From positions 1 through 36,447 of IMG/VR virus record IMGVR_UViG_3300047550_004145: 36,447 bases of DNA; one strand, written 5' to 3'. Within the stretch, counting starts at the first letter, position 1. Each line of letters starts with the position of its first letter. The translations under genes were made by a program, and so were the position numbers. Origin of the DNA: a virus. Below the pieces are notes generated by a model, which was not told the origin of the DNA, ran no database searches, and worked only from the letters and a program-made list of their open reading frames with translations. Shown here in pieces: positions 19,879-36,288 of this stretch.

Positions 19879-19936
19879 AGTCTACACCCGATTCTGTGAG
19901 ACTCACAAGACAATGTGCCAGTTTCTGAAGTGTCTA
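19879..19936 (-). promoter_or_regulatory. Palindrome promoter cassette, copy P
   Basis: Dyad GTGCCAG-N8-GTGTCTA at 19915-19936 (distal half-site diverged), 30-bp gap, -10 TAGACT (19884-19879 on the minus strand). The dyad lies inside the loop of a perfect 13-bp outer stem (AGACTCACAAGAC 19899-19911, GTCTTGTGAGTCT 19938-19950), unique to this copy. Would drive 19867 downward. Confidence 0.65.
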
Positions 19937-19968
19937 AGTCTTGTGAGTCTTATGTATGAGTATAAAGA

Positions 19969-19998
19969 AATAGCACAGAATTGGCGTTCTGTGCTATT
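19969..19998. terminator. Perfect 12-bp hairpin, possible terminator
   Basis: AATAGCACAGAA-TTGGCG-TTCTGTGCTATT. On the minus strand it is followed by TCTTTATAC, a weak U-tract. It could end the transcript of the 20268-20850 operon. Confidence 0.55.
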
Positions 19999-20018
19999 CT
20001 GATGCGTTTTTGCTGTTT

Positions 20019-20052
20019 TATAACAATATCACAGAAGTGTTATATTGTTATA
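20019..20052. terminator. Perfect 11-bp hairpin, possible terminator
   Basis: TATAACAATAT and ATATTGTTATA flank CACAGAAGTGTT, which itself can pair CAC/GTG. A GGCGGTTTTTT run follows on the plus strand 5 bp later. With 19969-19998 it forms a double hairpin between converging or diverging units. Confidence 0.45.
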
Positions 20053-20083
20053 CTGTGGCGGTTTTTTGAGTGTCCTGGGGGTA

Positions 20084-20112
20084 TTGACAAATGCGCGGAG
20101 ATGTGATAGACT
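20084..20112 (+). promoter_or_regulatory. Plus-strand sigma70 promoter TTGACA-17-TAGACT
   Basis: TTGACA (20084-20089), exactly 17 bp, TAGACT (20107-20112): the only strong promoter I see pointing right. No ORF follows before the convergent minus-strand gene at 20268, so its product would be a non-coding or antisense RNA. TTTATAAGT (20142-20150) and ACTTATAAA (20172-20180) form a perfect 9-bp stem in that transcript. Confidence 0.55.
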
Positions 20113-20267
20113 GCGGGCCAAGATCACAAGGTCCTGACACATTTATAAGTACATTTACAAATACAAAAAAGACTTATAAACACCTTATTGAACATCAAAT
20201 TGTCAGCAAATCAAAACACTCATATATGTTTTTTTAACCATTTTTTAATATAACGTTATCATTATAC
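20113..20267. other. Non-coding stretch, possible plus-strand small RNA
   Basis: No ORF on either strand. Contains the 9-bp stem 20142-20180, several A-runs and, near 20250-20261, the palindrome ATAACGTTAT. It lies downstream of the plus-strand promoter and beyond the end of the 20268-20850 operon. Confidence 0.4.
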
Positions 20268-20402
20268 TTACATAAACTCTTGAATAAGATAATCAACAGT
20301 AATCTCTAGTTCTGCTGCTTTTTGTTCCATCTCCATTGCATGTTCGTCAGCAAACTCATCGTTCTCGTGCTGACAGAAAAGATCAAGTGTTGACTCGTTC
20401 AT
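20268..20402 (-). CDS. Small acidic protein, 44 aa
   Basis: Starts MNESTLDLFCQHENDEFADE, then HAMEMEQKAAELEITVDYLI; a single helix-rich acidic protein. The ATG overlaps the preceding stop as ATGA, a sign of coupled translation. It is the last gene of a four-gene unit driven by cassette A. No domain recognised. Confidence 0.7.
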   Translation of the reverse strand: MNESTLDLFCQHENDEFADEHAMEMEQKAAELEITVDYLIQEFM

Positions 20403-20491
20403 TTGATTTGATAAATTGCTTGAAGAATAATCATCAGTTCATTACCATCTTGTGCTTTAGACAATAGATGGTAGATTTCCTTTCTTTTCAT
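20399..20491 (-). CDS. Very small protein, 30 aa
   Basis: MKRKEIYHLLSKAQDGNELM followed by IILQAIYQIK. Both ends overlap its neighbours by ATGA (20399-20402 and 20488-20491), which is the main evidence that it is translated. It would form one or two amphipathic helices. Function unknown. Confidence 0.6.
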   Translation of the reverse strand: MKRKEIYHLLSKAQDGNELMIILQAIYQIK

Positions 20492-20649
20492 TTAGAGAAG
20501 AGTTGTTGTACTTGATCGAAGTCTTTACATTGTGCTGCTTGAATTGCTTTTGTCATTGAATAAGTTACATAACCACAACGATGTTGAGCATTACAAATTG
20601 CATAAGCAGGTTGTTTAGTATGAATGTCGAATGTGGTTTTAATCAGCAT
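20488..20649 (-). CDS. Small hypothetical protein, 53 aa
   Basis: MLIKTTFDIHTKQPAYAICN then AQHRCGYVTYSMTKAIQAAQ and CKDFDQVQQLFSK. Three Cys and one His are present but not in a clear zinc pattern. The stop overlaps the next ATG. It lies 27 bp below the 57-aa gene. Function unknown. Confidence 0.7.
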   Translation of the reverse strand: MLIKTTFDIHTKQPAYAICNAQHRCGYVTYSMTKAIQAAQCKDFDQVQQLFSK

Positions 20650-20676
20650 TTTGTTTGTTTGTTGGGGAGTTAAGAA

Positions 20677-20850
20677 TCAGACTTGAGAAAGTGCATCTTT
20701 CTTCTGTCGGGGATTTTGCACTCGCTTTACCCAGGAAGATTTGCGATTGCGAACTTGAGAAGGAAGTTTAGTCTTGCTGCTCTGAACTTCATTCACAAGT
20801 TCAATGAAAGAAATAAAGAACTGGCGCTCCATGCGTTGGGCAGTGGTCAT
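20677..20850 (-). CDS. Small basic protein, 57 aa
   Basis: MTTAQRMERQFFISFIELVN, then EVQSSKTKLPSQVRNRKSSW and a Lys/Arg-rich tail VKRVQNPRQKKDALSQV. An internal ATG at residue 7 is an alternative start. The start is 3 bp below the stop of the 62-aa gene and about 22 bp below the -10 of cassette A, so it is the first gene of that unit. The basic tail suggests nucleic-acid contact; no domain recognised. Confidence 0.68.
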   Translation of the reverse strand: MTTAQRMERQFFISFIELVNEVQSSKTKLPSQVRNRKSSWVKRVQNPRQKKDALSQV

Positions 20851-20853
20851 CTC

Positions 20854-21042
20854 TCATCCCTGAACTTCGTTCATCATACCACGGCAGAGGGCGCTGTGCT
20901 CTTTTAGTGTGCCAGTGCTACAAGTGGCACAAGGGGTATGCGACTCGACGTGGGACAGATGCAGAAACCTGCGAAACAGTTGAGATTCATTTTCCAACTC
21001 ATCATCGGATAATGTACTCATGAAACTCAAAACTTCAGTCAT
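20854..21042 (-). CDS. 62-aa protein whose C-terminal third is encoded by promoter cassette A
   Basis: The N-terminal MTEVLSFMSTLSDDELENES and QLFRRFLHLSHVE look like an ordinary small acidic helix protein; the ATG follows the upstream stop by 1 bp. From about residue 35 the frame runs through the cassette dyad (20909-20930) and -10 (20873-20878), giving HTPCATCSTGTLKEHSALCR before stopping at 20854. Either the cassette landed in the 3' end of this gene and supplied a new tail, or the frame is open by chance. Confidence 0.55.
   Translation of the reverse strand: MTEVLSFMSTLSDDELENESQLFRRFLHLSHVESHTPCATCSTGTLKEHSALCRGMMNEVQG
20873..20930 (-). promoter_or_regulatory. Palindrome promoter cassette, copy A
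   Basis: Dyad GTGCCAG-N8-GTGGCAC at 20909-20930, 30-bp gap, extended -10 TGG-TATGAT (hexamer 20878-20873). Drives 20850-20268. It lies wholly inside the reading frame of the 62-aa gene. Confidence 0.8.
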
Positions 21043-21043
21043 T

Positions 21044-21388
21044 TCACTTCACTCCAAGCAGTTCTTTCTCTTCATCAGTCAAACGAGCAATCAGTTCTTT
21101 ACGCTTTTGTGCTTTGATTTTCTTCTGTTCTTCTACTTCAAGTTTTTCATCTAAGATTCTATTCATCGCATCAAAATCATAAAATTGCGTCCCTTTGATT
21201 ACACTATCCCACGAAGATTCACCTACATTGCTGATGAAAACACCCTGATCGTGCCAGTCATTATCATCATACCAATCATGACGCATGATGATTGCATAAC
21301 CTTCATCAGTTTGACGGAAGGTTACATCAATAATACCAAGTTTCTGTGCTTTGGTGAGAAAATCAAGCAGGTCAGTTGCAGTAATCAT
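21044..21388 (-). CDS. Hypothetical protein, 114 aa
   Basis: Starts MITATDLLDFLTKAQKLGII; middle HDWYDDNDWHDQGVFISNVG; C-terminus is a charged coiled helix with EVEEQKKIKAQKRKELIARL followed by TDEEKELLGVK. I chose the ATG overlapping the upstream stop (ATGA, 21385-21388), with GGAG 8 bp before, over an ATG five codons earlier. Part of the cassette-B operon. Function unknown. Confidence 0.78.
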   Translation of the reverse strand: MITATDLLDFLTKAQKLGIIDVTFRQTDEGYAIIMRHDWYDDNDWHDQGVFISNVGESSWDSVIKGTQFYDFDAMNRILDEKLEVEEQKKIKAQKRKELIARLTDEEKELLGVK

Positions 21389-21525
21389 TTCACTTCTCCA
21401 CAAACTTCAGGATTTGCATTACAAATCTTATCTGCTCTTTGTTCTTGATATTCATTCACAGTTGCAAGTGCGTTCATACCAAGATGAAGTGAAATGAAAA
21501 TAACAAAAAGAGAAAGAAATCGCAT
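21385..21525 (-). CDS. Small secreted or membrane-anchored protein, 46 aa
   Basis: MRFLSLFVIFISLHLGMNAL is a signal-peptide-like segment (positive n-region, hydrophobic core, small residues near 19-22), followed by a short mature part with two Cys, DKICNANPEVCGEVK. The frame is open further upstream but this start removes overlap with the next gene. An export or envelope function is inferred only from the signal. Confidence 0.65.
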   Translation of the reverse strand: MRFLSLFVIFISLHLGMNALATVNEYQEQRADKICNANPEVCGEVK

Positions 21526-21536
21526 TGTAGAAAAAA

Positions 21537-21785
21537 TCAGAGTTGAGACAGTACCCACATCATCGCAGACACTTCCTGTTTCGTATTCCATCCACTTACA
21601 TCATCAGTCATATGATTATTCGGTCGAATGATTGCAACCTCATATGTTTCATTTGCAAGATTACCATACAATCCACATCCTGCAGGTCCAGAAACTACAG
21701 AAATCTCCCAACCATTACTGAACTTATATGTACCATGAACCGCACCAGGAAGATTGTGCGCTTGAAAAATAAGTTGATCGAACAT
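21537..21785 (-). CDS. Small protein related to the 130-aa gene at 22522
   Basis: 82 residues from MFDQLIFQAHNLPGAVHGTY. The stretch FSNGWEISVVSGP (about 22-34) and GLYGNLANETYEVAIIRP line up with [13 protein letters not shown] and [13 protein letters not shown] in the 130-aa protein two genes upstream, so the two look like paralogues. The C-terminus KQEVSAMMWVLSQL likewise mirrors its [12 protein letters not shown]. Function unknown. Confidence 0.75.
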   Translation of the reverse strand: MFDQLIFQAHNLPGAVHGTYKFSNGWEISVVSGPAGCGLYGNLANETYEVAIIRPNNHMTDDVSGWNTKQEVSAMMWVLSQL

Positions 21786-21814
21786 TGTTTCAGTTGGTAA
21801 AGGAAATAAAGAAC

Positions 21815-22396
21815 TCAACCCAGACGTTTGGCACAAATAGGACCAATTCCCATCTGAACAGAAAGAGGATCACTCAACTTGCGAGCACAAATCGAACAAG
21901 ACCCAGTTTCATGACCATAAATCTTTGCAAGTTGCAGAAGATTATCATTGGCATCTTCCAGAAGATTCATTACATCTTCCGAAGCATTACCAATCAGATC
22001 ACCAGTGGAAGTGATTTTAGCAACATATTGGTTGTTTTCATAAACATAAACACAACCAAAGTTTTGTCCTTTGTTCACTGTGGAAAGAGTGATTCCAGGC
22101 AGTCGAACTTGAAACTTCGTTGCGCGATAAGCACCTGCATCATACATCTTGTTCACCAGTTGCTTGTAAGGACCAAATACAACAGGAGTTTCAGAATCAA
22201 TCAGATCCTGAGTGGCAAGATAATGAATCCAGGATTCTTGCGAAACAGTCAGTTTCTTCTTCGACAGAAGATCATCCACAAAAGTATTGAACTTCACATT
22301 CATAGAGAGATATGATTTCGCATCGGAGAGAGTATCAAACTTGCTCTCAAAGTTGATTTCTTGACCTTTCTTGGTGATGGTGAAAGTCTGAGTCAT
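21815..22396 (-). CDS. DUF6011-type zinc-motif protein
   Basis: 193 residues from MTQTFTITKKGQEINFESKF. The C-terminus SCSICARKLSDPLSVQMGIG followed by PICAKRLG is the DUF6011 signature: CxxC, then a later Cys in GPxC, probably binding zinc (Cys about 167, 170, 188). Such modules occur in phage proteins; their role is unknown. The middle VVFGPYKQLVNKMYDAGAYR is uncharacterised. First gene below cassette B; the longer open frame upstream is rejected because it would begin inside the promoter leader. Confidence 0.8.
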   Translation of the reverse strand: MTQTFTITKKGQEINFESKFDTLSDAKSYLSMNVKFNTFVDDLLSKKKLTVSQESWIHYLATQDLIDSETPVVFGPYKQLVNKMYDAGAYRATKFQVRLPGITLSTVNKGQNFGCVYVYENNQYVAKITSTGDLIGNASEDVMNLLEDANDNLLQLAKIYGHETGSCSICARKLSDPLSVQMGIGPICAKRLG

Positions 22397-22450
22397 CTGA
22401 GAAAGAATAAAGAATGGGACTTGCGTGGGACTCGCTCCTCCCACTCTTTA

Positions 22451-22507
22451 ATAATACCACACTTTGGGGTCTGTGCTCATTTAGTGTGCCACCAGTACAA
22501 GTGGCAC
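22451..22507 (-). promoter_or_regulatory. Palindrome promoter cassette, copy B
   Basis: Dyad GTGCCAC-N8-GTGGCAC at 22486-22507, 29-bp gap, extended -10 TGG-TATTAT (22456-22451). Belongs to the TTTAATAATACCACACTTTG subfamily (with D, F and, less closely, J). Drives the DUF6011 operon. Confidence 0.85.
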
Positions 22508-22521
22508 ATGGGGTATGAAAC

Positions 22522-22914
22522 TCAACTTGAGATTCGTTGAATCAAATCTTCAAGTTGTCCTTCATCCTTATACCATTCTTGATCTTGCAATGCACACAAT
22601 CCTTTCCGAATCAGTTGCATATCATCATATGAAAACTGATGCGGGACATATAGGTTTTCAATCTGCACCAGAATGTCAGAAACATCATCCTCAGTCAGAT
22701 GTCCCAATACATCACTGGTGATTGGAGTATCATAAACAATACTCCAACGAGATTCATCACCTTTAATTACCGCAAGTTCATACAATCCATTCTCGTTACC
22801 ATAAGAATGAGAATGTCGCACAACAGATGCACCATAACCATTCGGAAAGAATTGAAGTGCTTGAACTCCGTTAAGGTGGTCAATAGATTGAAAGTTAAGA
22901 TCAGAAAAGTTCAT
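22522..22914 (-). CDS. Hypothetical protein, 130 aa
   Basis: [20 protein letters not shown], then [40 protein letters not shown] and a helical tail [20 protein letters not shown]. Shares its central beta motif with the 82-aa gene at 21537. The ATG is 2 bp below the preceding stop. Third gene of the cassette-C operon; the stop is 14 bp from the dyad of cassette B. Function unknown. Confidence 0.78.
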
Positions 22915-22916
22915 TT

Positions 22917-23252
22917 TCAGGAGTTGGTGAGTTGAAAATTCAGTGCGTACTTAACCAGTTCTTCGCGGTTATTTTTATATTCCAAAATCAAGTCAATGAT
23001 GTGGTTTGTATCCTCATCATCAACTTCATATTCATTCTCAGATTGTGCGATTACACGGAAGATTTGCACAATCTCAAAATCATTGGGAAACAGAACGTTT
23101 CGGTGATTATCAATTTCAATAAAATCATCCACTACCTCAGCAGAAAGTTTCAGTGGAATATCAGGAGAAAGCATACCCAACGTCGCAAGACGTTCAGCAG
23201 CACCAATAACCCACATCACTTTGCACTCATCAACAGTCAGTTTGCTTTTCAT
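22917..23252 (-). CDS. Hypothetical protein, 111 aa
   Basis: [20 protein letters not shown], then a largely helical, acidic protein with [20 protein letters not shown] and C-terminal [17 protein letters not shown]. No membrane segment or catalytic motif. Between the DUF2786 gene (41 bp upstream) and the 130-aa gene (2 bp downstream), so operonic. Function unknown. Confidence 0.78.
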
Positions 23253-23293
23253 TGTATCAGGAATAAGGGGAAAAAAGAAAAGGAGTGTTTAAC

Positions 23294-23968
23294 TCACACT
23301 CCGCAGAGTTGTTTGGTCACAGAACCAGATGCTTGGCGATTCAGTGAAACACCAGCACCAACATTGGAACCAGCATAAGCACCAGCACCATTCGCGCCAT
23401 TCATTTTCTTAGCGCGACCAAATCGCATTGTGGAGAGTTTCTTATCCACTGCCTCAGCATCATCGTGAACTCGTCCCTCTTCACGCTTCATTTCCTGAAG
23501 TCGCAGAGAAACTTTTTCAGCAAATGCTTTGCGGAAGTTAATCTTGAAACTGCGAGAGACAGTAGCACCAGTCAGAGAAGCAAGAACTTTCTCTGCTTTA
23601 TGTGCAACTTCTGCTTCTTTCTCCATCACCTGCACCAGGTAATCATAATAGAGACGAACTTGGATTTGTTGTCCCTCACTACCAATTACCTGAAGAGATT
23701 TAGTATCACCATTCTTCAGATATGCTTTCGCATCATAGAAGTTTGCAACAGCATTAAGAAGAAGACTCAGAGCAGCATTAACACGCTTGAAAGAAAGGAA
23801 CTCCTCATCAACAACTTGAGTTTCAGTTGCTTCGGTGAGAGTTACATTATACTGCTTGCAAAGTTTATCAATCATTGCAGCAGCAGCAGATGCTTCACCA
23901 TCAAACGTGGTGTTTTCTTGCAGTTTCAGAATGGACTGAATCTTTGCAATAACTTGGGCGCGATCCAT
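23294..23968 (-). CDS. DUF2786 domain protein
   Basis: 224 residues. The N-terminal IAKIQSILKLQENTTFDGEA and SAAAAMIDKLCKQYNVTL (about 8-45) have the DUF2786 pattern, K-I-x-x-L-x-L, E-A-x-x-A, followed by a helical body with EGQQIQVRLYYDYLVQVMEK. The tail is Gly/Ala-rich and low complexity (NGANGAGAYAGSNVGAG). DUF2786 proteins are found in bacteria and phages without known activity. First gene below cassette C, 22 bp from its -10. Confidence 0.8.
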   Translation of the reverse strand: MDRAQVIAKIQSILKLQENTTFDGEASAAAAMIDKLCKQYNVTLTEATETQVVDEEFLSFKRVNAALSLLLNAVANFYDAKAYLKNGDTKSLQVIGSEGQQIQVRLYYDYLVQVMEKEAEVAHKAEKVLASLTGATVSRSFKINFRKAFAEKVSLRLQEMKREEGRVHDDAEAVDKKLSTMRFGRAKKMNGANGAGAYAGSNVGAGVSLNRQASGSVTKQLCGV

Positions 23969-23990
23969 TGCGTTTGTCTGAAGTTCCTTC

Positions 23991-24048
23991 AGTATAGCAG
24001 GGCAGGGGGGCGTTTGGGCGATATAATGGACAGTGCTACAACTGGCAC
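23991..24048 (-). promoter_or_regulatory. Palindrome promoter cassette, copy C
   Basis: 22-bp site at 24027-24048 with one intact half (CTGGCAC) and one diverged half (TGGACAG, as in copy I); 30-bp gap; extended -10 TGC-TATACT (23996-23991). Drives the DUF2786 operon. Confidence 0.7.
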
Positions 24049-24063
24049 AGTCTCACACTGGAC

Positions 24064-24177
24064 TCAGCGATCAGTGGTGATAATATCAGCAACAGCATAA
24101 AGTGTATTTGCAGTTGCAACTCTCACACTTGGAGAGAAAATAAATGCAACTGCAAAGATGAGAACAATAACCTTCAT
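24064..24177 (-). CDS. Small secreted or membrane peptide, 37 aa
   Basis: MKVIVLIFAVAFIFSPSVRV then ATANTLYAVADIITTDR. Residues 2-15 are a hydrophobic signal or anchor; VRVATA resembles a signal-peptidase site. It ends 16 bp from the dyad of cassette C and is the last gene of the cassette-D unit. Function unknown. Confidence 0.65.
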   Translation of the reverse strand: MKVIVLIFAVAFIFSPSVRVATANTLYAVADIITTDR

Positions 24178-24215
24178 TCGATCAGGTTTCTTAAACGAAA
24201 GAGTTTTAGTTCTCA

Positions 24216-24404
24216 TCAAGCAAAAATCACACAGAGTTTCTTAAAGTCATATGAACCATCATTTGCTTCTTGCGCTTCATAAACGAAGACATTTTCACCA
24301 TCAAGAGTGGAACTCCAGTCAAGTGCCTCCTCTTTTGCTTCATCAAGATCATCAAACCATTCTGCATCACAGAGAGGATAAGATGCGGGACAGGTGAGAA
24401 ACAT
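24216..24404 (-). CDS. Small acidic protein, 62 aa
   Basis: From MFLTCPASYPLCDAEWFDDL, then DEAKEEALDWSSTLDGENVF and VYEAQEANDGSYDFKKLCVI. The order WFDDLDEAKEEALDW suggests a beta strand plus helix of the kind used to handle small domains that mimic or bind nucleic acids, but I recognise no family. The longer open frame (eight residues more) is AT-rich leader and was not used. Middle gene of the cassette-D unit. Confidence 0.7.
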   Translation of the reverse strand: MFLTCPASYPLCDAEWFDDLDEAKEEALDWSSTLDGENVFVYEAQEANDGSYDFKKLCVIFA

Positions 24405-24461
24405 TGTGAAAAAGAATAAAGTTACCACAGAGGGGAGAATAAATCTCCCCCCAAATTAAAC

Positions 24462-24668
24462 TCAGACCGCCGCCATGTAAGCAGCGATTTCATCATCATT
24501 CTCAGGGCAATCTGCGATTCCCAGTTGCTCGCAAACATACTCACGAGTGAGTTCAACTTGCTCAGGAACCAGGACATTCAGAATGTCAAGAATCTGAGTA
24601 CCAGTAGCACCTTTGCGGAGCATACCGAACATCACATCCTTGGAGAAATCAACAGCAACAGCAGTCAT
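24462..24668 (-). CDS. Hypothetical protein, 68 aa
   Basis: MTAVAVDFSKDVMFGMLRKG then ATGTQILDILNVLVPEQVEL and EYVCEQLGIADCPENDDEIA. Helical; GATGTQILDIL followed by an acidic end suggests a small helix-turn-helix-like or interaction fold, unproven. First gene below cassette D (leader about 50 bp). Function unknown. Confidence 0.75.
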   Translation of the reverse strand: MTAVAVDFSKDVMFGMLRKGATGTQILDILNVLVPEQVELTREYVCEQLGIADCPENDDEIAAYMAAV

Positions 24669-24723
24669 TTTAATGAAAGTAAGTTGGACGTTTGAGGCGG
24701 GGCGTGACTCCCTCCACCCTTTA

Positions 24724-24780
24724 ATAATACCACACTTTGGGGTCTGTGCTCTTTTAGTGTGCCACTAGAACAAGTGGCAC
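24724..24780 (-). promoter_or_regulatory. Palindrome promoter cassette, copy D
   Basis: Dyad GTGCCAC-N8-GTGGCAC at 24759-24780, 29-bp gap, extended -10 TGG-TATTAT (24729-24724). The 73 bp 24710-24782 are identical to 27084-27156 of copy F. Drives 24668-24064. Confidence 0.88.
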
Positions 24781-24805
24781 ATGGTATCATTGGACTCAGC
24801 GAATC

Positions 24806-25012: not shown

Positions 25013-25014
25013 AA

Positions 25015-25419: not shown

Positions 25420-25457
25420 TTTGGGATTAGGTAAAGAAATCATTAAGAATTTAGAGA

Positions 25458-25666: not shown

Positions 25667-25724
25667 ATTATAGGGCATCTGCCGCCCCTTTGGGGGTTTA
25701 GTGTGCCAGTTCATCATCTGGCAC
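25667..25724 (-). promoter_or_regulatory. Palindrome promoter cassette, copy E
   Basis: Dyad GTGCCAG-N8-CTGGCAC at 25703-25724 (7-bp perfect arms), 30-bp gap, consensus -10 TATAAT (25672-25667). Same subfamily as K and O (GGGCATCTG, CCCCTTTGGGGG). Its dyad is also the last seven codons or so of the gene 25698-25862. Confidence 0.88.
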
Positions 25725-27097: not shown

Positions 27098-27154
27098 ATA
27101 ATACCACACTTTGGGGTCTGTGCTCTTTTAGTGTGCCACTAGAACAAGTGGCAC
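27098..27154 (-). promoter_or_regulatory. Palindrome promoter cassette, copy F
   Basis: Dyad GTGCCAC-N8-GTGGCAC at 27133-27154, 29-bp gap, extended -10 TGG-TATTAT (27103-27098). Sequence 27084-27156 repeats 24710-24782 (copy D) without a mismatch. Drives 26911-25698. Confidence 0.88.
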
Positions 27155-27742: not shown

Positions 27743-27799
27743 ATAATAGCACAGTCAGGGCGCTGTGCTCATTTACTGTGCCACCTCTACAAGTGGCAC
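27743..27799 (-). promoter_or_regulatory. Palindrome promoter cassette, copy G
   Basis: Dyad GTGCCAC-N8-GTGGCAC at 27778-27799, 29-bp gap, extended -10 TGC-TATTAT (27748-27743). Drives 27716-27164. The stop codon of the methyltransferase (27787-27789) lies in the centre of its dyad. Confidence 0.85.
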
Positions 27800-28747: not shown

Positions 28748-28805
28748 ATTGTAGCACAGATTAGATTATATGTGAAGAAGACTGTGCCACTTGTAGAGGT
28801 GGCAC
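28748..28805 (-). promoter_or_regulatory. Palindrome promoter cassette, copy H (dyad centre reversed)
   Basis: Dyad GTGCCAC-N8-GTGGCAC at 28784-28805, 30-bp gap, extended -10 TGC-TACAAT (28753-28748). On the plus strand the centre reads TTGTAGAG, the reverse complement of CTCTACAA in G, K and L, so the dyad is inverted yet its distance to the -10 is kept. A second TATAAT (28765-28770) lies between. Drives the nuclease and methyltransferase. Confidence 0.85.
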
Positions 28806-30264: not shown

Positions 30265-30322
30265 ATTGTAGCACCCCTCCCATGAGTTTGGGAAGGATGC
30301 TGGACGGTTTCACAAGTGGCAC
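30265..30322 (-). promoter_or_regulatory. Palindrome promoter cassette, copy I
   Basis: 22-bp site 30301-30322 with one intact half GTGGCAC and one diverged half TGGACGG (compare C); 30-bp gap; extended -10 TGC-TACAAT (30270-30265), 17 bp above the helicase ATG. Little room remains for a ribosome-binding site. Confidence 0.7.
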
Positions 30323-30334
30323 AAGGACTATATT

Positions 30335-30903: not shown

Positions 30904-30951
30904 TAAAGTAAAAGAAAGGAATGTTGTGGGTGGTGCTTCATCCACTCTTTA

Positions 30952-31008
30952 ATAATACCACGTTTGTAGCACCGTGCTCTTTTAGTGTGCCAGTGCTACA
31001 ACTGGCAC
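30952..31008 (-). promoter_or_regulatory. Palindrome promoter cassette, copy J
   Basis: Dyad GTGCCAGT-N6-ACTGGCAC at 30987-31008 (8-bp arms, longest seen), 29-bp gap, extended -10 TGG-TATTAT (30957-30952). Shares the TTTAATAATACCAC block with B, D and F but differs in the interior. Drives 30903-30335. Confidence 0.85.
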
Positions 31009-31019
31009 ACAGAGATAAC

Positions 31020-31430: not shown

Positions 31431-31432
31431 AA

Positions 31433-31630
31433 TTAAAAAGAAGAAAGAACTTGAAATTGTGTTTTCATAGTGCTGAGGTCTTTGTAGATAGACTCTGCAC
31501 CTTCAAGAGACATATTAGGACGCAATCCTTCCTTACATTCACTAATCCTTTTATTCCATTTATACATCGCATCTTGAAGTGCCCAATACAGAGTCTCAAA
31601 CTCTTGATTAGTAATTTCGATAGTTTTCAT
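31433..31630 (-). CDS. Small hypothetical protein, 65 aa
   Basis: MKTIEITNQEFETLYWALQD then AMYKWNKRISECKEGLRPNM and ESIYKDLSTMKTQFQVLSSF. A strand then two helices; MKTIEITNQEFETLYWAL is a common start of small regulatory-size phage proteins. The open frame extends 12 codons further, but the ATG chosen is 2 bp below the previous stop. Function unknown. Confidence 0.75.
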   Translation of the reverse strand: MKTIEITNQEFETLYWALQDAMYKWNKRISECKEGLRPNMSLEGAESIYKDLSTMKTQFQVLSSF

Positions 31631-31632
31631 AA

Positions 31633-31794
31633 TCAATAAAGAGGTTGGGATTTGATTTCTTTCCACTCTCGTGGATAGATTTCATTAGCAATCTTGTCGT
31701 TCAGTTTAACACAGTTGAGAGGTTTAATGTTGCTTCTACGTTGAAACTTCTCAACAGTTCCATCCGCAAACTCAACTCTGATGTTGTAGAGCAT
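31633..31794 (-). CDS. Small hypothetical protein, 53 aa
   Basis: MLYNIRVEFADGTVEKFQRR then SNIKPLNCVKLNDKIANEIY and PREWKEIKSQPLY. A beta hairpin (YNIRVEFADGTVEKFQR) with basic residues, slightly reminiscent of a small DNA/RNA-binding strand protein. It sits 2 bp from both neighbours. Function unknown. Confidence 0.72.
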   Translation of the reverse strand: MLYNIRVEFADGTVEKFQRRSNIKPLNCVKLNDKIANEIYPREWKEIKSQPLY

Positions 31795-31796
31795 AA

Positions 31797-31991
31797 TCAA
31801 TTTGCAAAAATGTCAATGTCAGGAATACGGGCAAGAACGTGCCTAAGTTGAAGTCTCAAATCATCAACCGCAGGACTATCAACATCCTGCCAGGCAGAGG
31901 CACTTTGCAGAACACAAAAGAGAGAATGTGCTTGCCTTGAAGTGAGTGAGAAGGAGACAATATCTCCATCAAGTTGAACAGTGTTAGTCAT
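31797..31991 (-). CDS. Small hypothetical protein, 64 aa
   Basis: MTNTVQLDGDIVSFSLTSRQ then AHSLFCVLQSASAWQDVDSP and AVDDLRLQLRHVLARIPDID. Strand followed by two helices; ATG chosen over a TTG two codons earlier because it follows the upstream stop by 2 bp. Function unknown. Confidence 0.74.
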   Translation of the reverse strand: MTNTVQLDGDIVSFSLTSRQAHSLFCVLQSASAWQDVDSPAVDDLRLQLRHVLARIPDIDIFAN

Positions 31992-31993
31992 AA

Positions 31994-32242
31994 TCAAACA
32001 GCAACAGAGAACTCAGGAAGAATACAGAAAGAGTTGCACCAAGTACGAACCCATTGCAAAGTATCTGCGTAGCAACGTGGTTCAGATACTACCATACTCG
32101 CATCCTTACGAGGATTGTAAGCAACAGCAACATATTTGTAGCAATCAGGGGATTCTTCAATCTCTTGAATCCACATTTGATTTACACGACCATCTTGCCA
32201 GTCCCAACGTGAAACCGTGTAGTGGAAGACATCAAGAATCAT
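31994..32242 (-). CDS. Hypothetical protein, 82 aa
   Basis: MILDVFHYTVSRWDWQDGRV then NQMWIQEIEESPDCYKYVAV and DTLQWVRTWCNSFCILPEFS. Rich in Trp and Cys, beta-leaning. A strong AAGGAG Shine-Dalgarno stands 7 bp before the ATG. First gene of a five-gene operon under cassette K. Function unknown. Confidence 0.78.
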   Translation of the reverse strand: MILDVFHYTVSRWDWQDGRVNQMWIQEIEESPDCYKYVAVAYNPRKDASMVVSEPRCYADTLQWVRTWCNSFCILPEFSVAV

Positions 32243-32268
32243 CAGGTCTCCTTTGCTTGTGTCCCTGT

Positions 32269-32326
32269 ATTGTAGGGCATCTGGGGGGTCTGTGGGGGTT
32301 TAGTGTGCCACCTCTACAAGTGGCAC
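32269..32326 (-). promoter_or_regulatory. Palindrome promoter cassette, copy K
   Basis: Dyad GTGCCAC-N8-GTGGCAC at 32305-32326, 30-bp gap, -10 TACAAT (32274-32269). Interior and leader (GGGCATCTG, CCTTTGCTTGTGT) match copies E and O. Drives 32242-31020. Confidence 0.85.
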
Positions 32327-32333
32327 ATGGGTA

Positions 32334-32555
32334 TCATTTATGATAAAGTCCTGTAGTGAAGAAGATTTTATCCATAATGCACATAGAAAGTTCAAAGAGG
32401 ACTTCATCATCAATCTGTCCCATTTTATTCACAACAGCATCAGGGATAATCTCATTCATAAACAAAACATATCTTTCATCACTGTTAATGTAGTCGATTA
32501 CTTCAGGTGCAAGAGCAGATGCAAGTTTGTTGTACGTATTGTTTGAAAGAGTCAT
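32334..32555 (-). CDS. Hypothetical protein, 73 aa
   Basis: MTLSNNTYNKLASALAPEVI then DYINSDERYVLFMNEIIPDA and VVNKMGQIDDEVLFELSMCI. Helical, acidic. GGAGGGG lies 8 bp before the ATG. It is coupled to the upstream membrane protein, whose stop is 1 bp before this ATG. Ends 7 bp from the dyad of copy K. Function unknown. Confidence 0.76.
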   Translation of the reverse strand: MTLSNNTYNKLASALAPEVIDYINSDERYVLFMNEIIPDAVVNKMGQIDDEVLFELSMCIMDKIFFTTGLYHK

Positions 32556-32556
32556 T

Positions 32557-32727
32557 TCATTCACCCCTCCGAATATTATCCCCAACATAATATAACAAGT
32601 CAAGAACAACCGCAATAGGCACACACCACCAGATATTCAATCCTGTGAGGAGATGAACTCCAAACACCAAAACAAACATAAGTGGAAACTGAAACGGAAA
32701 GGCAAATAGAGTATTTTTAAGTCTCAT
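32557..32727 (-). CDS. Small membrane protein, 56 aa
   Basis: MRLKNTLFAFPFQFPLMFVL then VFGVHLLTGLNIWWCVPIAV and VLDLLYYVGDNIRRGE. Two hydrophobic segments (about 7-30 and 33-48) with positive residues at both ends, consistent with two membrane passes and termini inside. No family recognised. First gene below cassette L. Confidence 0.72.
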   Translation of the reverse strand: MRLKNTLFAFPFQFPLMFVLVFGVHLLTGLNIWWCVPIAVVLDLLYYVGDNIRRGE

Positions 32728-32755
32728 TCTAGTTGGTTTGGTTGCTTATGAGAGT

Positions 32756-32813
32756 ATTATAGGGCATCAGGTGTCACTGTACTCTTTTAGTGTGCCACCT
32801 CTACAAGTGACAC
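32756..32813 (-). promoter_or_regulatory. Palindrome promoter cassette, copy L
   Basis: Dyad GTGCCAC-N8-GTGACAC at 32792-32813 (one mismatch), 30-bp gap, consensus -10 TATAAT (32761-32756). Drives 32727-32334. The homing endonuclease gene ends inside it. Confidence 0.85.
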
Positions 32814-33458
32814 ATCGTTTAATTTTATATTTTCTACATTTATGACATTTTTATGTTTTTTTCTATTTTTCTTAGATATTTGTACTATATGAGACCTATT
32901 ATAATTGTTTTCTTTACACCAATTTGCTAACCCACAAAGAATAATTGTTTTACCATCACTAAAAGTGATTTTCCATAATTTAGATTTTCCATTTTTAAAT
33001 CCTTTATTATTCTTATTTTTTTCAGAAATTCTTTTTTTATGCTCTTCAGTAAGAGGTTTTTTGTATTGTGGGTGATTTTTGCCTTTTATTGCCTCACTAA
33101 TATTTTTTCTATGCTCTTCAGTAAATTTTATATTTCTGCGTCTATTACTAATATTTCTTTTTTGTTCTTCACTAAAAAGACGACCACTTGTTCCTTCTCC
33201 ACCATTAGTTCTATTATGGAGAATACCAGTTCCTAAATCTTTTCTTCCAAGCACAGCAATCATATAGATTTCGTGCTTAAATGCTTCTTCTTCGGTTAAG
33301 TTTTGTTTTAAAAATATTATTCTGGTTTTATCGTTTGGTGGATTTGTTGTTTTTCTATTTGTAGAGTAAATCCTATTTTTTTGACCTTTGCCAATATAAT
33401 AAGGAGTTTTATCCTTACGCAAATATGCGTAGGTATAAAATCGGTTAGGATTTACCAT
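32787..33458 (-). CDS. GIY-YIG homing endonuclease with NUMOD3 repeats
   Basis: 223 residues. YTYAYL (8-13) and YYIGKG (20-25) form the GIY-YIG core, followed by a catalytic-type Glu63 in FKHEIYMI and an NRTNGGEGTSG loop (82-92). Three NUMOD3-like units follow (SEEQKRNIS, TEEHRKNISEAIKGKNHPQY, TEEHKKRISEKNKN; about 96-150), then a C-terminal DNA-binding module ITFSDGKTIILCGLANWCKE (164-183). Related to T4 Seg/I-TevI-type mobile endonucleases. A perfect TATAAATA late promoter precedes it. The tail VEVAH and the stop TAA come from cassette L. Confidence 0.9.
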   Translation of the reverse strand: MVNPNRFYTYAYLRKDKTPYYIGKGQKNRIYSTNRKTTNPPNDKTRIIFLKQNLTEEEAFKHEIYMIAVLGRKDLGTGILHNRTNGGEGTSGRLFSEEQKRNISNRRRNIKFTEEHRKNISEAIKGKNHPQYKKPLTEEHKKRISEKNKNNKGFKNGKSKLWKITFSDGKTIILCGLANWCKENNYNRSHIVQISKKNRKKHKNVINVENIKLNDVSLVEVAH

Positions 33459-33485
33459 AACTGCTCTTTAGTTGACTGACTTAAG

Positions 33486-33493
33486 TATTTATA
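33486..33493 (-). promoter_or_regulatory. Perfect late promoter TATAAATA for the homing endonuclease
   Basis: The minus strand reads TATAAATA 27 bp before the ATG at 33458, normal spacing for a T4-type late promoter. T4 homing endonucleases such as I-TevI are also transcribed late. Confidence 0.75.
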
Positions 33494-33504
33494 CAAGAAA
33501 AGGG

Positions 33505-33534
33505 CATCTCTGCCCTCCTCTACCTGTAGAGATG
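33505..33534 (-). terminator. Hairpin terminator above the late promoter
   Basis: CATCTCT (33505-33511) pairs with AGAGATG (33528-33534), with an inner CTCTA/TAGAG pairing. On the minus strand it is followed by CCCTTTTCTTG. It should close the tRNA/small-gene transcript before the homing endonuclease unit. Confidence 0.55.
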
Positions 33535-33558
33535 TCAGTCAACTTCAGGCAGTATTAT

Positions 33559-33675
33559 TTAGAGGTACTTTTTCTTCAAACTTTTTACTCTTTTCTTTGC
33601 TTGCCTAAGTGCTTGAGGTTTTAATTTTCTTTTTTGTTCTTTTTTGCTATGATGTTGCCAATTTGGGGTGTTCAT
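33559..33675 (-). CDS. Small Lys-rich peptide, 38 aa
   Basis: MNTPNWQHHSKKEQKRKLKP then QALRQAKKRVKSLKKKYL. About 40 percent Lys/Arg, likely nucleic-acid binding if made. A longer frame reads upstream through the tRNA gene and is not used. No clear ribosome-binding site. A CTAAATA motif covers its last codons. Confidence 0.45.
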   Translation of the reverse strand: MNTPNWQHHSKKEQKRKLKPQALRQAKKRVKSLKKKYL

Positions 33676-33692
33676 TGTTCTAATGTTTACAG

Positions 33693-33764
33693 TATTCCCA
33701 AGGGGAGTTGAACCCCTGTTTTCTCCGTGAAAGGGAGGTGTCCTAACCACTAGACGATGGGAAC
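33693..33764 (-). tRNA. tRNA-Glu (anticodon TTC)
   Basis: 72 nt on the minus strand, starting GTTCCCATCGTCTAGTGG. Acceptor GTTCCCA/TGGGAAT, D stem GTC/GAC, anticodon loop CTTTCAC with anticodon TTC, T stem AGGGG/CCCCT with loop TTCAACT. CCA is not encoded. The first anticodon-stem pair is C-A instead of a Watson-Crick pair. Phage tRNAs supplement host pools for codons more used by the AT-rich phage; GAA fits that. Confidence 0.9.
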
Positions 33765-33767
33765 AAG

Positions 33768-33786
33768 AAAGGGGCATTACCCCTTT
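33768..33786 (-). terminator. Hairpin between the 67-aa gene and tRNA-Glu
   Basis: AAAGGGG-CATTA-CCCCTTT, a perfect 7-bp stem followed on the minus strand by CTTGTTCCC (the T-run is within the stem arm). It ends 3 bp before the tRNA 5' end, so it may be a weak terminator or a processing signal. Confidence 0.5.
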
Positions 33787-33794
33787 ATATTTAA

Positions 33795-33998
33795 TCAGAC
33801 AGCAACTACATCTTCATCTTCAACCTCAACCACATCCTCATCCGATTGATAGTTCTCAATCACGGTGGCATCATAGTTATCGAGTGCCTCAATCAGTTCA
33901 GCACCAGTTTCCGCATTGGTGATATTCAGAATCAGTTGAGACCCAGCAGGGTTAGTATCAACAATCTCAGCAGCAAGAGCAAGCAGTTTAACAGACAT
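33795..33998 (-). CDS. Small acidic protein, 67 aa
   Basis: MSVKLLALAAEIVDTNPAGS then QLILNITNAETGAELIEALD and a very acidic tail DEDVVEVEDEDVVAV. The tail (11 Asp/Glu in about 17) suggests a DNA-mimic or charged interaction surface; not identified. Start chosen at the Met after the hydrophobic upstream open frame. Function unknown. Confidence 0.68.
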   Translation of the reverse strand: MSVKLLALAAEIVDTNPAGSQLILNITNAETGAELIEALDNYDATVIENYQSDEDVVEVEDEDVVAV

Positions 33999-34063
33999 AA
34001 TGAAAAAGAAAGGAGAATGAATGAAAAAGGAGAACTTTAGGGCAACTACCATTCCCAGATGAG

Positions 34064-34210
34064 TTAATAACTCAAAGAGTAATCAACTTCAAGGTCATAA
34101 TCAGGAACCTCAAAGTCACTCAAGAGTTCCACATAGTCTTCATAATCAACACCAAGATACTTGGCAAAGTCTTCATAATCATCGTGAAGCATTAGATTAT
34201 CAGAAATCAT
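34064..34210 (-). CDS. Small acidic protein, 48 aa
   Basis: MISDNLMLHDDYEDFAKYLG then VDYEDYVELLSDFEVPDYDL and EVDYSLSY. Acidic with repeated DYED motifs. An optimal GGAGG stands 8 bp before the ATG. First gene below cassette M; the 67-aa gene and possibly the tRNA follow in the same unit. Confidence 0.72.
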   Translation of the reverse strand: MISDNLMLHDDYEDFAKYLGVDYEDYVELLSDFEVPDYDLEVDYSLSY

Positions 34211-34236
34211 TGAAACCTCCTTGACTCGATGAATAC

Positions 34237-34294
34237 ATCATAGCACGTCCATGGTGCCGTGGGAAGAGTGATGTGCCAGTTGTTAAAGTGGCAC
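34237..34294 (-). promoter_or_regulatory. Palindrome promoter cassette, copy M
   Basis: Dyad GTGCCAG-N8-GTGGCAC at 34273-34294, 30-bp gap, extended -10 TGC-TATGAT (34242-34237). The gap sequence is unlike the other copies, yet its length is the same. Drives 34210 downward. Confidence 0.82.
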
Positions 34295-34305
34295 AGTCTC
34301 ATCAT

Positions 34306-34488
34306 TCACTCCTCATTCTCAACATAAACTTCAGGACTATCATTCACACTCGAAGTCTTCACCCGAACATTGTAAGGACTGTTGAAGAAACGACGGAAAG
34401 CAGTAACCACAATAACAAGCGTCGAAACAACACCAACAAGACCAATGAAGGTAACAGCATCACCCGAGAAACTGTAAGTATCAACCAT
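34306..34488 (-). CDS. Small membrane protein, 60 aa
   Basis: MVDTYSFSGDAVTFIGLVGV then VSTLVIVVTAFRRFFNSPYN and an acidic tail SPEVYVENEE. One long hydrophobic segment (about 11-30) followed by RR gives a single-pass protein with the C-terminus inside. Sole gene of the cassette-N unit; its stop is 11 bp above copy M's dyad. Function unknown. Confidence 0.74.
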   Translation of the reverse strand: MVDTYSFSGDAVTFIGLVGVVSTLVIVVTAFRRFFNSPYNVRVKTSSVNDSPEVYVENEE

Positions 34489-34524
34489 TAAACCTGAACC
34501 CGTCCTTGACTTAACTACTCTAGT

Positions 34525-34580
34525 AGTATAGCACCGCTGAGGTGCTGGGTGGGGGTGTCTGTGCCAGTTCCAGAAGTGTC
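34525..34580 (-). promoter_or_regulatory. Palindrome promoter cassette, copy N
   Basis: 22-bp site 34561-34582: intact half GTGCCAG, diverged half GTGTCCT (same type as O and P); 30-bp gap; extended -10 TGC-TATACT (34530-34525). Drives the 60-aa membrane protein. Confidence 0.72.
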
Positions 34581-34581
34581 C

Positions 34582-34995
34582 TCAGCGTGACTGTAACTCT
34601 CTCTTAATTTCAGCTTTAAGTTGTTCTTTTTCTTGTCTTTTTTTAAGATTTCTTTTTACTTTTGCTTGATATTCTGCTACCTTTTCTTTATTTGCTTGCA
34701 TTTGAGAAAGTTGTCTTTGGCGTAGTCTCTGTCTTCTTGCTTCAATATCCTCTTTGATTTTTACTGATTTCTTTACAAGTTTCTTTACAGAACCACCACC
34801 ACCAACTCCACCTTGCTTCTTCAATACTTTTTCAACTTTCTTTTCAGAACCAAGAGGTCCAGATGGTCCTTCATATGGTGCAAGAGTATAAGTCTTTACT
34901 CCATATTCATCTACACTATAAGTTCCCGGAACTGCATTTGGCGGAGTAGCAGTTTTCTTCTCACAAATTAACAGAAACTCTTTAAAGGTAATCAT
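34582..34995 (-). CDS. Structural-type protein with MITFKEFLLICE start, 137 aa
   Basis: MITFKEFLLICEKKTATPPN resembles the short MxTFxEFxxxCE leader seen on several cyanophage virion-associated proteins (from memory). The middle is Gly/Pro-rich (GVGGGGSVKKLVKKSVKIKE), then a long basic coiled helix RRQRLRQRQLSQMQANKEKV. The ATG overlaps the previous stop (ATGA). Possibly an internal or packaged protein. Late operon with the 160-aa gene. Confidence 0.68.
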   Translation of the reverse strand: MITFKEFLLICEKKTATPPNAVPGTYSVDEYGVKTYTLAPYEGPSGPLGSEKKVEKVLKKQGGVGGGGSVKKLVKKSVKIKEDIEARRQRLRQRQLSQMQANKEKVAEYQAKVKRNLKKRQEKEQLKAEIKRELQSR

Positions 34996-35474
34996 CTTAC
35001 TCTAGAACTATCAGTTATAATACTCTCTCTCCAATCCTCACTCATATTCACCATAATAACTTCTGCTGCTTCTGGTGTTTCAGCATATCCTTCATCAAGT
35101 AAGTGTGAGAGGATGATGTCGTAGTAATCATAACTTTCTACACTTACACCCCTTTTTCTTTGTCTTTCAAGTTTTTTACCCTTTGGCATTCCACCAGGAC
35201 CTTCGGGTTTATCTGGATTTTCTTCTCTTTCACTATCTCTTCTTATATCCCTAATATCCTGCGTCATTCCAGTCCTCATAGAAGGATGTTGTGTTGGAGG
35301 AGTAGGTCTTTTTCTTGGTCTTTCTTTACCAAATCCAGTTTCCTGATTTGATTGTCTTACAGCAAGACCTGCTTTATATTGCTTTCTTCTTTGTGGTGTT
35401 ATTTCTTCATCAAGTTGATTACTAACAACTTCCATATATGCTTCTTGAAGATTGCGAAGTTCTTGTGCGTCCAT
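34992..35474 (-). CDS. Cyanophage protein with C-terminal LLDEGYAETPEAAEVIM motif, 160 aa
   Basis: MDAQELRNLQEAYMEVVSNQ start, a charged, disordered middle (RKRPTPPTQHPSMRTG, ERQRKRGVS), then the C-terminal YDIILSHLLDEGYAETPEAA with VMVNMSEDWRESI-like end. This end module recurs at the C-terminus of various cyanophage proteins. A TATAAATA late promoter 20 bp before the ATG supports late, virion-related expression. An upstream TTG would add three residues. Confidence 0.75.
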   Translation of the reverse strand: MDAQELRNLQEAYMEVVSNQLDEEITPQRRKQYKAGLAVRQSNQETGFGKERPRKRPTPPTQHPSMRTGMTQDIRDIRRDSEREENPDKPEGPGGMPKGKKLERQRKRGVSVESYDYYDIILSHLLDEGYAETPEAAEVIMVNMSEDWRESIITDSSRVR

Positions 35475-35494
35475 TTTTACCAATACTTTTTAGT

Positions 35495-35502
35495 TATTTA
35501 TA
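35495..35502 (-). promoter_or_regulatory. Perfect late promoter TATAAATA
   Basis: The minus strand reads TATAAATA 20 bp upstream of the ATG at 35474. It separates the late pair 34582-35474 from the cassette-O unit above. Confidence 0.72.
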
Positions 35503-35503
35503 T

Positions 35504-35773
35504 TTACTCATACTCAAAATATTTATTTACTCTTCTGGATGGAGTTTCATATTCAGAAACTGTAGAAGTATTGATAATACACTTTACTGGTTTTGATTCT
35601 GCTGGAATGATATGAGTTCTTACTGCATTAAAAATAATAAAACAGTTAGTAATAAAAATAGACAAAAACATCAAAAGACGAATAAGAGCAATCTTATCGG
35701 CTTCCCTATCATCATTACCCTCTTTACTACCTAGAGATTTTGCAATCAGTCTCCACATAGTCTTAACTTTCAT
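35504..35773 (-). CDS. Single-pass membrane protein, 89 aa
   Basis: MKVKTMWRLIAKSLGSKEGN then DREADKIALIRLLMFLSIFI and TNCFIIFNAVRTHIIP. One membrane segment (about 34-53) between a basic/charged N-terminal region and a soluble C-terminal tail SRRVNKYFEYE. Its start overlaps the preceding stop. Third gene of the cassette-O unit. Function unknown. Confidence 0.74.
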   Translation of the reverse strand: MKVKTMWRLIAKSLGSKEGNDDREADKIALIRLLMFLSIFITNCFIIFNAVRTHIIPAESKPVKCIINTSTVSEYETPSRRVNKYFEYE

Positions 35774-35999
35774 AGACACACGTTCTTGATTTTATGTATG
35801 TTAGTTCTTTCCATTGCTCCTGATAACAAATCACAAGCAATCGTTCATTTCTATGTAGAGAACAGTGTTGATAGTTAATATGGTCTTTGGGGCGAACTAC
35901 AACTTCAATCGTAATGTATTCTTTACACTTGAAATACACCCACCCATTAACGTTTTTCTTCCATTCTACGAAATCGTTGATTTGAGGTTCATAGGACAT
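35763..35999 (-). CDS. Hypothetical protein, 78 aa
   Basis: MSYEPQINDFVEWKKNVNGW then VYFKCKEYITIEVVVRPKDH and RLLVICYQEQWKELTYIKSR. A small all-beta protein (SH3-like pattern: DFVEW..GWVYF..YITIEV) of a kind I recognise in marine cyanophages; function unknown. Overlaps the next gene by 11 bp. Confidence 0.8.
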   Translation of the reverse strand: MSYEPQINDFVEWKKNVNGWVYFKCKEYITIEVVVRPKDHINYQHCSLHRNERLLVICYQEQWKELTYIKSRTCVYES

Positions 36000-36021
36000 A
36001 GAATACTAATCAATTCAATAT

Positions 36022-36189
36022 CTACTTATCAAACTTTTCTAGGAACTCATCAATCTTTCTGATTTTTTCTGTGTAGTCTGCAATCAAGTCTGCATGTGGA
36101 TAGTTATAATATTCTGGACGTTTCATACAATCAAGCAGATGTTGCTTAACTGCTTTCTGAATATCGCATTCAATTTGAATACCACTCAT
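36022..36189 (-). CDS. Small hypothetical protein, 55 aa
   Basis: MSGIQIECDIQKAVKQHLLD then CMKRPEYYNYPHADLIADYT and EKIRKIDEFLEKFDK. Helical. First gene below cassette O, with AGGAAGG-type leader bases 3-10 bp before the ATG. Function unknown. Confidence 0.74.
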   Translation of the reverse strand: MSGIQIECDIQKAVKQHLLDCMKRPEYYNYPHADLIADYTEKIRKIDEFLEKFDK

Positions 36190-36230
36190 TAGGAAGGAAG
36201 AGTCATAGGTGGATTTGCTTGTGTTCTTGT

Positions 36231-36288
36231 ATTATAGGGCATCTGGCGCCCCTTTGGGGGTTTAGGGTGCCAGTTCCTCAAGTGTCCA
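36231..36288 (-). promoter_or_regulatory. Palindrome promoter cassette, copy O
   Basis: 22-bp site 36267-36288: intact half GTGCCAG, diverged half GTGTCCA; 30-bp gap; consensus -10 TATAAT (36236-36231). Gap and leader are nearly identical to copy E. Drives 36189-35504. The pentapeptide gene ends in the site. Confidence 0.8.

Follow-up and report, generated by a model that had tools for sequence, protein, structure and literature searches.

The window analysed here, a 36,447-nt stretch of DNA from a T4-like virus of cyanobacteria (IMG/VR record IMGVR_UViG_3300047550_004145, positions 1 to 36,447), carries sixteen copies of a promoter-like cassette, each made of a 22-bp inverted repeat (dyad) of the GTGCCA-N10-TGGCAC type and a −10 hexamer at a nearly fixed distance below it on the minus strand. 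Genes in the first 18 kb look, by eye, like those for T4-type baseplate and tail proteins, including gp6- and gp25-like ones. All sixteen copies lie within 16.6 kb (19.9–36.3 kb) of small minus-strand genes, and none falls in the other 19.8 kb. On recheck, the left ends that a preliminary description had given for these minus-strand sites were all correct; its observation is confirmed, and its interpretation is supported in part. The cassettes are listed below (gap, base pairs between dyad and −10; TGn, present before the hexamer).

Copy 1 (minus strand): operator dyad 19915..19936, left half degenerate (TAGACA), profile score 28; −10 19879..19884, TAGACT, gap 30.
Copy 2 (minus strand): operator dyad 20909..20930, perfect; −10 20873..20878, TATGAT, gap 30, TGn.
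Copy 3 (minus strand): operator dyad 22486..22507, perfect; −10 22451..22456, TATTAT, gap 29, TGn.
Copy 4 (minus strand): operator dyad 24027..24048, right half TGTCCA; −10 23991..23996, TATACT, gap 30, TGn.
Copy 5 (minus strand): operator dyad 24759..24780, perfect; −10 24724..24729, TATTAT, gap 29, TGn.
Copy 6 (minus strand): operator dyad 25703..25724, perfect; −10 25667..25672, TATAAT, gap 30.
Copy 7 (minus strand): operator dyad 27133..27154, perfect, 98.7% identity to copy 5 over 78 bp; −10 27098..27103, TATTAT, gap 29, TGn.
Copy 8 (minus strand): operator dyad 27778..27799, perfect; −10 27743..27748, TATTAT, gap 29, TGn.
Copy 9 (minus strand): operator dyad 28784..28805, perfect, core orientation opposite to copy 8; −10 28748..28753, TACAAT, gap 30, TGn, TTCACA at 17 bp.
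Copy 10 (minus strand): operator dyad 30301..30322, right half CGTCCA, 4 mismatches; −10 30265..30270, TACAAT, gap 30, TGn, 11-bp gap hairpin of −20.4 kcal/mol.
Copy 11 (minus strand): operator dyad 30987..31008, perfect; −10 30952..30957, TATTAT, gap 29, TGn.
Copy 12 (minus strand): operator dyad 32305..32326, perfect; −10 32269..32274, TACAAT, gap 30, with AGGAG and ATG some 20 nt past the predicted start.
Copy 13 (minus strand): operator dyad 32792..32813, 1 mismatch; −10 32756..32761, TATAAT, gap 30.
Copy 14 (minus strand): operator dyad 34273..34294, perfect; −10 34237..34242, TATGAT, gap 30, TGn, with AGGAG and ATG some 20 nt past the predicted start.
Copy 15 (minus strand): operator dyad 34561..34582, left half AGGACA, adjoining the upstream stop codon; −10 34525..34530, TATACT, gap 30, TGn.
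Copy 16 (minus strand): operator dyad 36267..36288, left half TGGACA; −10 36231..36236, TATAAT, gap 30; 89% identity to copy 6 over the dyad and the next 53 bp.

Ten of the sixteen dyads are perfect and one has a single mismatch; the other five (19915, 24027, 30301, 34561 and 36267) have one degenerate half of the GGACA, AGACA or GTCCA type, with 3–4 mismatches, which fits a wider family half-site, G[T/G]G[C/A]CA[C/G]TT. Dinucleotide shuffles of the window yielded a mean of 0.02 dyads with at most one mismatch, against 11 observed. The N10 arm spacing is enriched, and the only other spacing with matches, N4, is a by-product of the N10 sites. As originally noted, a TANNNT hexamer follows every dyad, after 29 bp in five copies (22486, 24759, 27133, 27778 and 30987) and after 30 bp in eleven, and TGn precedes it in 11/16. 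Given the local density of TANNNT, the chance is about 3% per site and about 3e-24 for all sixteen, figures that overstate independence, because several copies are near-duplicates; the cross-phage results below do not depend on them.

Several further features lie at individual copies. A weak seventeenth dyad on the plus strand (20055-20076), with TTGACA 17 bp from TAGACT, is oriented away from copy 1, with which it may be divergently paired. Copy 1 is also enclosed by a longer inverted repeat (AGACTCACAAGAC ... GTCTTGTGAGTCT; 19879-19960, minus strand) that runs across dyad and gap. The cassette of copy 13 overlaps the 3′ end of a minus-strand open reading frame (32787-33458) that begins MVNPNRFYTYAYLRKDKTPYYIGKGQ and looks, by eye, like a GIY-YIG nuclease.

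The spacing seen in the window recurs in other viruses. We scanned viral contigs for dyads with TATNAT 15–45 bp below them, imposing no single distance, and recovered at least 120 stretches (1.03 Mb). Among the matches listed, 475 oriented dyads had TANNNT at gaps of 29, 30 and 31 bp in 37, 162 and 74 cases, as against about 8–10 at most other gaps, and the 29–31-bp peak was retained among 339 independent dyads. For named phages we used an iterated weight matrix with fixed spacing, trained partly on the same genomes; strict-pattern counts with backwards controls agreed with its counts. The scans that the preliminary description had suggested bore out a constant spacing both in the 339 independent dyads and in the named phages. 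We counted 9 cassettes in Syn9, 21 in S-PM2, 27 in S-CRM01, 29 in S-SRM01, 20 in P-SSM2, 14 each in P-HM2, P-SSM4 and P-RSM4, and 8 in S-CAM22, a range of 8–29 in nine T4-like cyanophages, as well as 19 in S-SKS1; shuffles, run for the first genome set, gave 0–0.4. In Syn9, the nine dyads start at 43114, 44775, 47205, 48559, 49079, 51001, 52997, 127493 and 148743, so that seven lie at 43–53 kb, among small genes. The pelagiphage HTVC008M had one cassette by the same matrix, and the strict dyad was not found in T4, Ma-LMM01, Syn5 or P-SSP7. Most of the relatives tested, marine and freshwater alike, carry the unit, which is widespread, though not universal, among T4-like phages of picocyanobacteria. 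In S-TIM5 (163775-170889), eleven related cassettes have a different half-site, TGGCC/GGCCA, which suggests a variant in operator specificity.

Downstream of the −10, the cassettes are followed by start codons at a preferred distance. Across 365 promoters from all sources, selected without imposing any ATG or Shine–Dalgarno position, ATG occurred 27–32 nt below the first −10 base 24, 34, 43, 46, 25 and 27 times (199 in sum); counts were 1–12 at neighbouring offsets, about 3 per offset immediately flanking the peak and 8 farther downstream. Shine–Dalgarno motifs (GGAG, AGGA or GAGG) lay at 18–23 nt. These offsets imply a leader of about 15–20 nt, and the start-codon geometry appears to be that of working promoters. 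In our own comparison for P-SSM2, the annotated starts at most plus-strand sites fall 15–23 nt past the predicted transcription starts, for example at the helicase gene PSSM2_039 and at PSSM2_042, 067, 072, 079 and 085. On the other side, the dyad begins 7–25 nt past the upstream stop codon in most window copies with a measurable distance. With the dyad this close to the stop and the leader this short, the intergenic space is filled by operator, gap, −10 and leader.

We then asked whether the dyad is constrained as duplex DNA or as an RNA stem-loop, using 421 oriented dyads with a −10 (the search pattern partly biases arm position 4, but not position 7). At position 4 (C or A), the arms were symmetric in 72.2% of dyads, against 71.9% if independent. 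At position 7 (G or C), they were symmetric in 31.6%, against 44.6% if independent, with 164 unlike and 90 like C/G pairs; the arms thus tend to differ there, making the position anti-symmetric. In the five degenerate window copies the stem is broken, yet the spacing and one half are kept. Because the arms do not covary and the degenerate copies break the stem, recognition would be of duplex DNA with an asymmetric core, which supports the dyad being a DNA operator rather than a stem-loop. The original proposal of an operator near −53, read as DNA, therefore stands, and we rejected the reading of the dyad as an RNA stem-loop or terminator for its lack of covariation. A search against known RNA families matched only the tRNA.

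The gap between dyad and −10 was initially described as lacking TTGACA and as varied in sequence but fixed in length. In the window, the first point is right: the best match is TTCACA at 28784 (17 bp, 5/6). It does not extend to the family. In relatives, at least 4/6 of TTGACA occurs at exactly 17 bp in 120 of 695 cassettes, against about 7–34 at most other spacings, so the −35 is optional, and its absence is mainly a trait of the window phage. The fixed length also holds, but the gap is not merely variable, as relatives often have a hairpin there and sometimes an intrinsic terminator. Strong gap hairpins (dG < −8) were found in 20% of cassettes, compared with 7% in shuffles, and a hairpin followed by TTTT in 30/695, compared with 1.4 in shuffles. 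S-CRM01 has a clear gap terminator at 78829 (AGGGGATCCCTAGGGGTCCCCTTTTTGTGT, then TAGAAT), as do S-PM2 (195637), P-SSM2 (53916) and S-SRM01 (50174); these terminators fill the space between operator and −10 exactly. No hairpin with a T-run was found in the window gaps. In P-RSM4 (47043-51975), the gap retains a lineage-specific CCCATT block near −35, unlike TTGACA.

Building on the dyad, its spacing, the constraint on it as DNA, the leader geometry, the terminator and −35 content of the gap and the spread among cyanophages, all of which are read directly from sequence, we propose that an operator-bound activator probably drives the host polymerase at promoters with a weak or missing −35, as a self-contained cassette between small genes. 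The operator, TGTGMCASTT-N4-AASTGKCACA, with its centre at about −53.5 and its downstream edge at −43, would be read by a two-fold symmetric protein. A dimeric class-I-type activator could then hold host sigma-A RNA polymerase at the promoter through the C-terminal domain of the polymerase alpha subunit (alpha-CTD) or through sigma region 4, replacing or supporting the −35 contact. The unit would run from operator through a free 29–31-bp spacer to the −10 (often extended by TGn) and a short leader with Shine–Dalgarno and ATG. A dispensable −35 would leave the spacer free for other use; in relatives it often holds a hairpin and sometimes the upstream gene's own intrinsic terminator, which makes a one-piece ‘operator–terminator–minus 10’ unit that could be duplicated from one intergenic space to another. 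Activation, as opposed to repression, is what we infer for the operator, and gene context suggests that the genes are early; a phage-encoded activator is slightly favoured over a host one, because phages of similar hosts have very different numbers of sites. Were the genes truly immediate-early, such a phage factor would need to arrive with the virion. More tentatively, and with rather less than even confidence, we suggest an uncharacterised, probably phage-encoded activator system across most T4-like picocyanobacterial viruses, in which the operator would stand at a fixed 30 bp from the −10 and the freed spacer would take up the upstream gene's terminator, letting a single module of about 60 bp close one gene and open the next.

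Several observations weigh against this proposal. Activators usually centre at −41.5 (class II) or −61.5 (class I), and an operator at −53.5 falls between the two. S-SM2 and P-TIM68 have only 2 and 4 cassettes, all weak, and T4-like cyanophages can therefore do without the unit; a de novo search of these two genomes for a shifted operator found none. No binding protein was found, and the sole helix-turn-helix (HTH)-like candidate does not track the dyads. Finally, 37% of dyads have a weak second −10 (at least 4/6) on their opposite side, compared with 13% at control offsets; it is also present between genes of the same direction. A symmetric protein would permit such an opposite-side −10; we rejected a bidirectional promoter role, as the second −10 signal is only weak and shows no preference for divergent neighbours.

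These data bear on other explanations as well. The dyad could be an RNA stem-loop at which the upstream gene's transcript is terminated or processed, beside an ordinary early promoter, as in the PeSL cassettes of T4-type coliphages. Its position 7–25 nt below the upstream stop in most measurable copies, the duplication of cassettes between genes and the real terminators in relatives' gaps would all fit. However, the lack of covariation at arm positions 4 and 7, the anti-symmetry of position 7, the five window copies whose stem is broken although half-site and spacing are retained, the absence of a U-run after the window dyads and the fixed distance to the −10, which a terminator would not need, together leave this explanation improbable. 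We give a marginally better, but still low, chance to the dyad being a repressor operator through which early genes are shut off later in infection. A perfect or near-perfect palindrome suits a dimer, and early genes are usually turned off later. Yet a centre at about −53.5, upstream of the core promoter, is an uncommon place for repressor sites, the spacing to the −10 is held to ±1 bp, and most copies lack a recognisable −35, so that a bound protein would have to assist initiation rather than block it. It is very unlikely that the repeats are simply selfish or mobile units spread by recombination or duplication, with the promoter geometry as a passenger: copies 5 and 7 (98.7% identity over 78 bp) and copies 6 and 16 (89% over 75 bp) are close duplicates, but the geometry is kept across diverged phages with unrelated gaps and flanks, as are the leader and start-codon distances.

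The strongest competitor, doubtful but a real possibility, keeps the same operator and mechanism and assigns binding to a hijacked host transcription factor instead of a phage-encoded one. Early promoters depend on what the cell or the virion supplies, and in our sample the unit is confined to picocyanobacterial phages, being absent from T4 and Ma-LMM01 and nearly so from the same-family SAR11 phage. There is precedent in host PhoB, which is taken over for some S-PM2d genes (PMC10976474). Against a host factor, no matching regulon was found in 400 Cyanobiaceae genomes: the 26-bit site gave 14 single matches, close to the roughly 13 expected in about 0.86 Gb, and never several per genome. The backwards control pattern gave 0 matches, and five look-alike matches had no promoter geometry and resembled dispersed repeats. 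The strict palindrome was not found in Prochlorococcus or marine Synechococcus genome contigs, and S-SM2 and P-TIM68 are almost free of sites despite similar hosts. A host regulon with much weaker sites may exist.

Returning to the activator-dependent cassette that we favour, its nearest named architecture is PeSL and its nearest mechanism that of P2 Ogr/Delta. A PeSL joins a stem-loop to a sigma-70 early promoter. Like the PeSL cassettes known from T4-type phages (Arbiol 2010; Comeau 2014, both as cited in PMC4503421), the cyanophage unit is an intergenic composite of promoter and terminator, repeated between small genes and duplicated; in S-PM2, only a few PeSL-like elements were found (PMC4503421). 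The likeness to stem-loop/early-promoter cassettes drawn at the outset was therefore apt, except that any stem-loop sits inside the operator-to-−10 gap and the dyad is not one. The cyanophage cassette differs in adding a DNA operator at a fixed distance, in often having no −35 (the window copies have no consensus sigma-70 TTGACA, at most the TTCACA at 28784) and in a conserved inverted repeat that, showing no covariation, does not act as an RNA stem-loop. The late promoters activated by P2 Ogr and P4 Delta have a TGT-N12-ACA dyad-like site near −55, no good −35 and a small activator that contacts RNA polymerase. The cassette resembles them in a dyad centred at about −53.5, a −10 and, in the window, no −35, whereas half-site and arm spacing differ and the genes under Ogr/Delta control are late. 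No match to Ogr/Delta (PF04606) exceeded the cut-off in nine phages, and of the window genome only a 36-kb fragment is available.

T4 middle promoters, in which MotA and AsiA act at a MotA box at −30 and an extended −10, are likewise a phage scheme for promoters without a −35. The MotA box is not a 22-bp dyad, however, and the cassette gap is not conserved at −30, which excludes MotA by position and agrees with the earlier remark that no MotA box is visible. That remark's companion, that cyanophages have no MotA, is also in line with the reported absence of motA and/or asiA from marine cyanophages (PMC5780444). Host-type regulator sites do occur upstream of cyanophage genes, for NtcA (PMC3037559) and PhoB (PMC10976474). 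NtcA sites are GTA-N8-TAC near −41, as against GTGMCA-N10-TGKCAC near −53.5 here, and Pho boxes are direct repeats, as against a 24-bp dyad. The cassette would thus combine an activator-dependent phage promoter with a PeSL-like composite unit. In 2016, Doron et al. reportedly described a novel regulatory element for early Syn9 transcription, with host-like promoters for middle genes. That element is probably the cassette described here, and this likely identity limits novelty; none of our results on spacing, covariation, embedded terminators or host genomes draws on that work.

T4-like cyanophages, which rank among the most abundant viruses of sunlit waters, lack T4's MotA/AsiA and would seize the host polymerase early in infection by other means. 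A 24-bp operator with such exact geometry, shared by most of the cultured relatives tested, offers direct bait for the missing regulator, and the cassette can readily be used to predict promoters of this kind in contigs of uncultured viruses. Its design is compact, with operator, terminator and −10 within 60 bp.

Candidates for the binding protein were sought among phage genes. The HTH-like proteins phrog_1308/phrog_1920 (54–75 aa; Syn9 57929-58093, S-PM2 93932-94144, S-SKS1 84397-84627) are highly conserved and occur in hundreds of viral contigs, with no Pfam match; an AlphaFold2 model (pLDDT 77) has three helices and weak matches, mostly to HTH DNA-binding domains. We rejected them as the common binder, as P-HM1, P-HM2 and P-SSM4 have dyads but not the gene, and S-SM2 has the gene with hardly any dyads. 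Correlating gene content with site number pointed to no HTH protein. A small protein, perhaps LSm-like by eye (P-HM2 136465-136704, P-RSM4 144225-144470), is present in 9–10 of ten dyad-rich phages and in 0/4 dyad-poor ones.

Across 84,980 species, the strict palindrome occurred in 44 stretches, mostly scattered or in repeat families of Nostocales and Acidobacteria. Nostocales genomes, at four loci, have in common a GTGACA-N10-TGTCAC palindrome next to GTGGGAA/TTTCCCAC repeats, apparently a dispersed element with no relation to the cassette. One Pyrinomonadaceae metagenome-assembled genome (MAG; SSF56), represented by six of the stretches, has at least 6 strict palindromes, possibly an unrelated regulon or repeat. 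Three contigs (C26, C52 and C54) of a Flavobacteriales marine MAG (TMED113) carry ten cyanophage-type dyads and are probably misbinned phage DNA.

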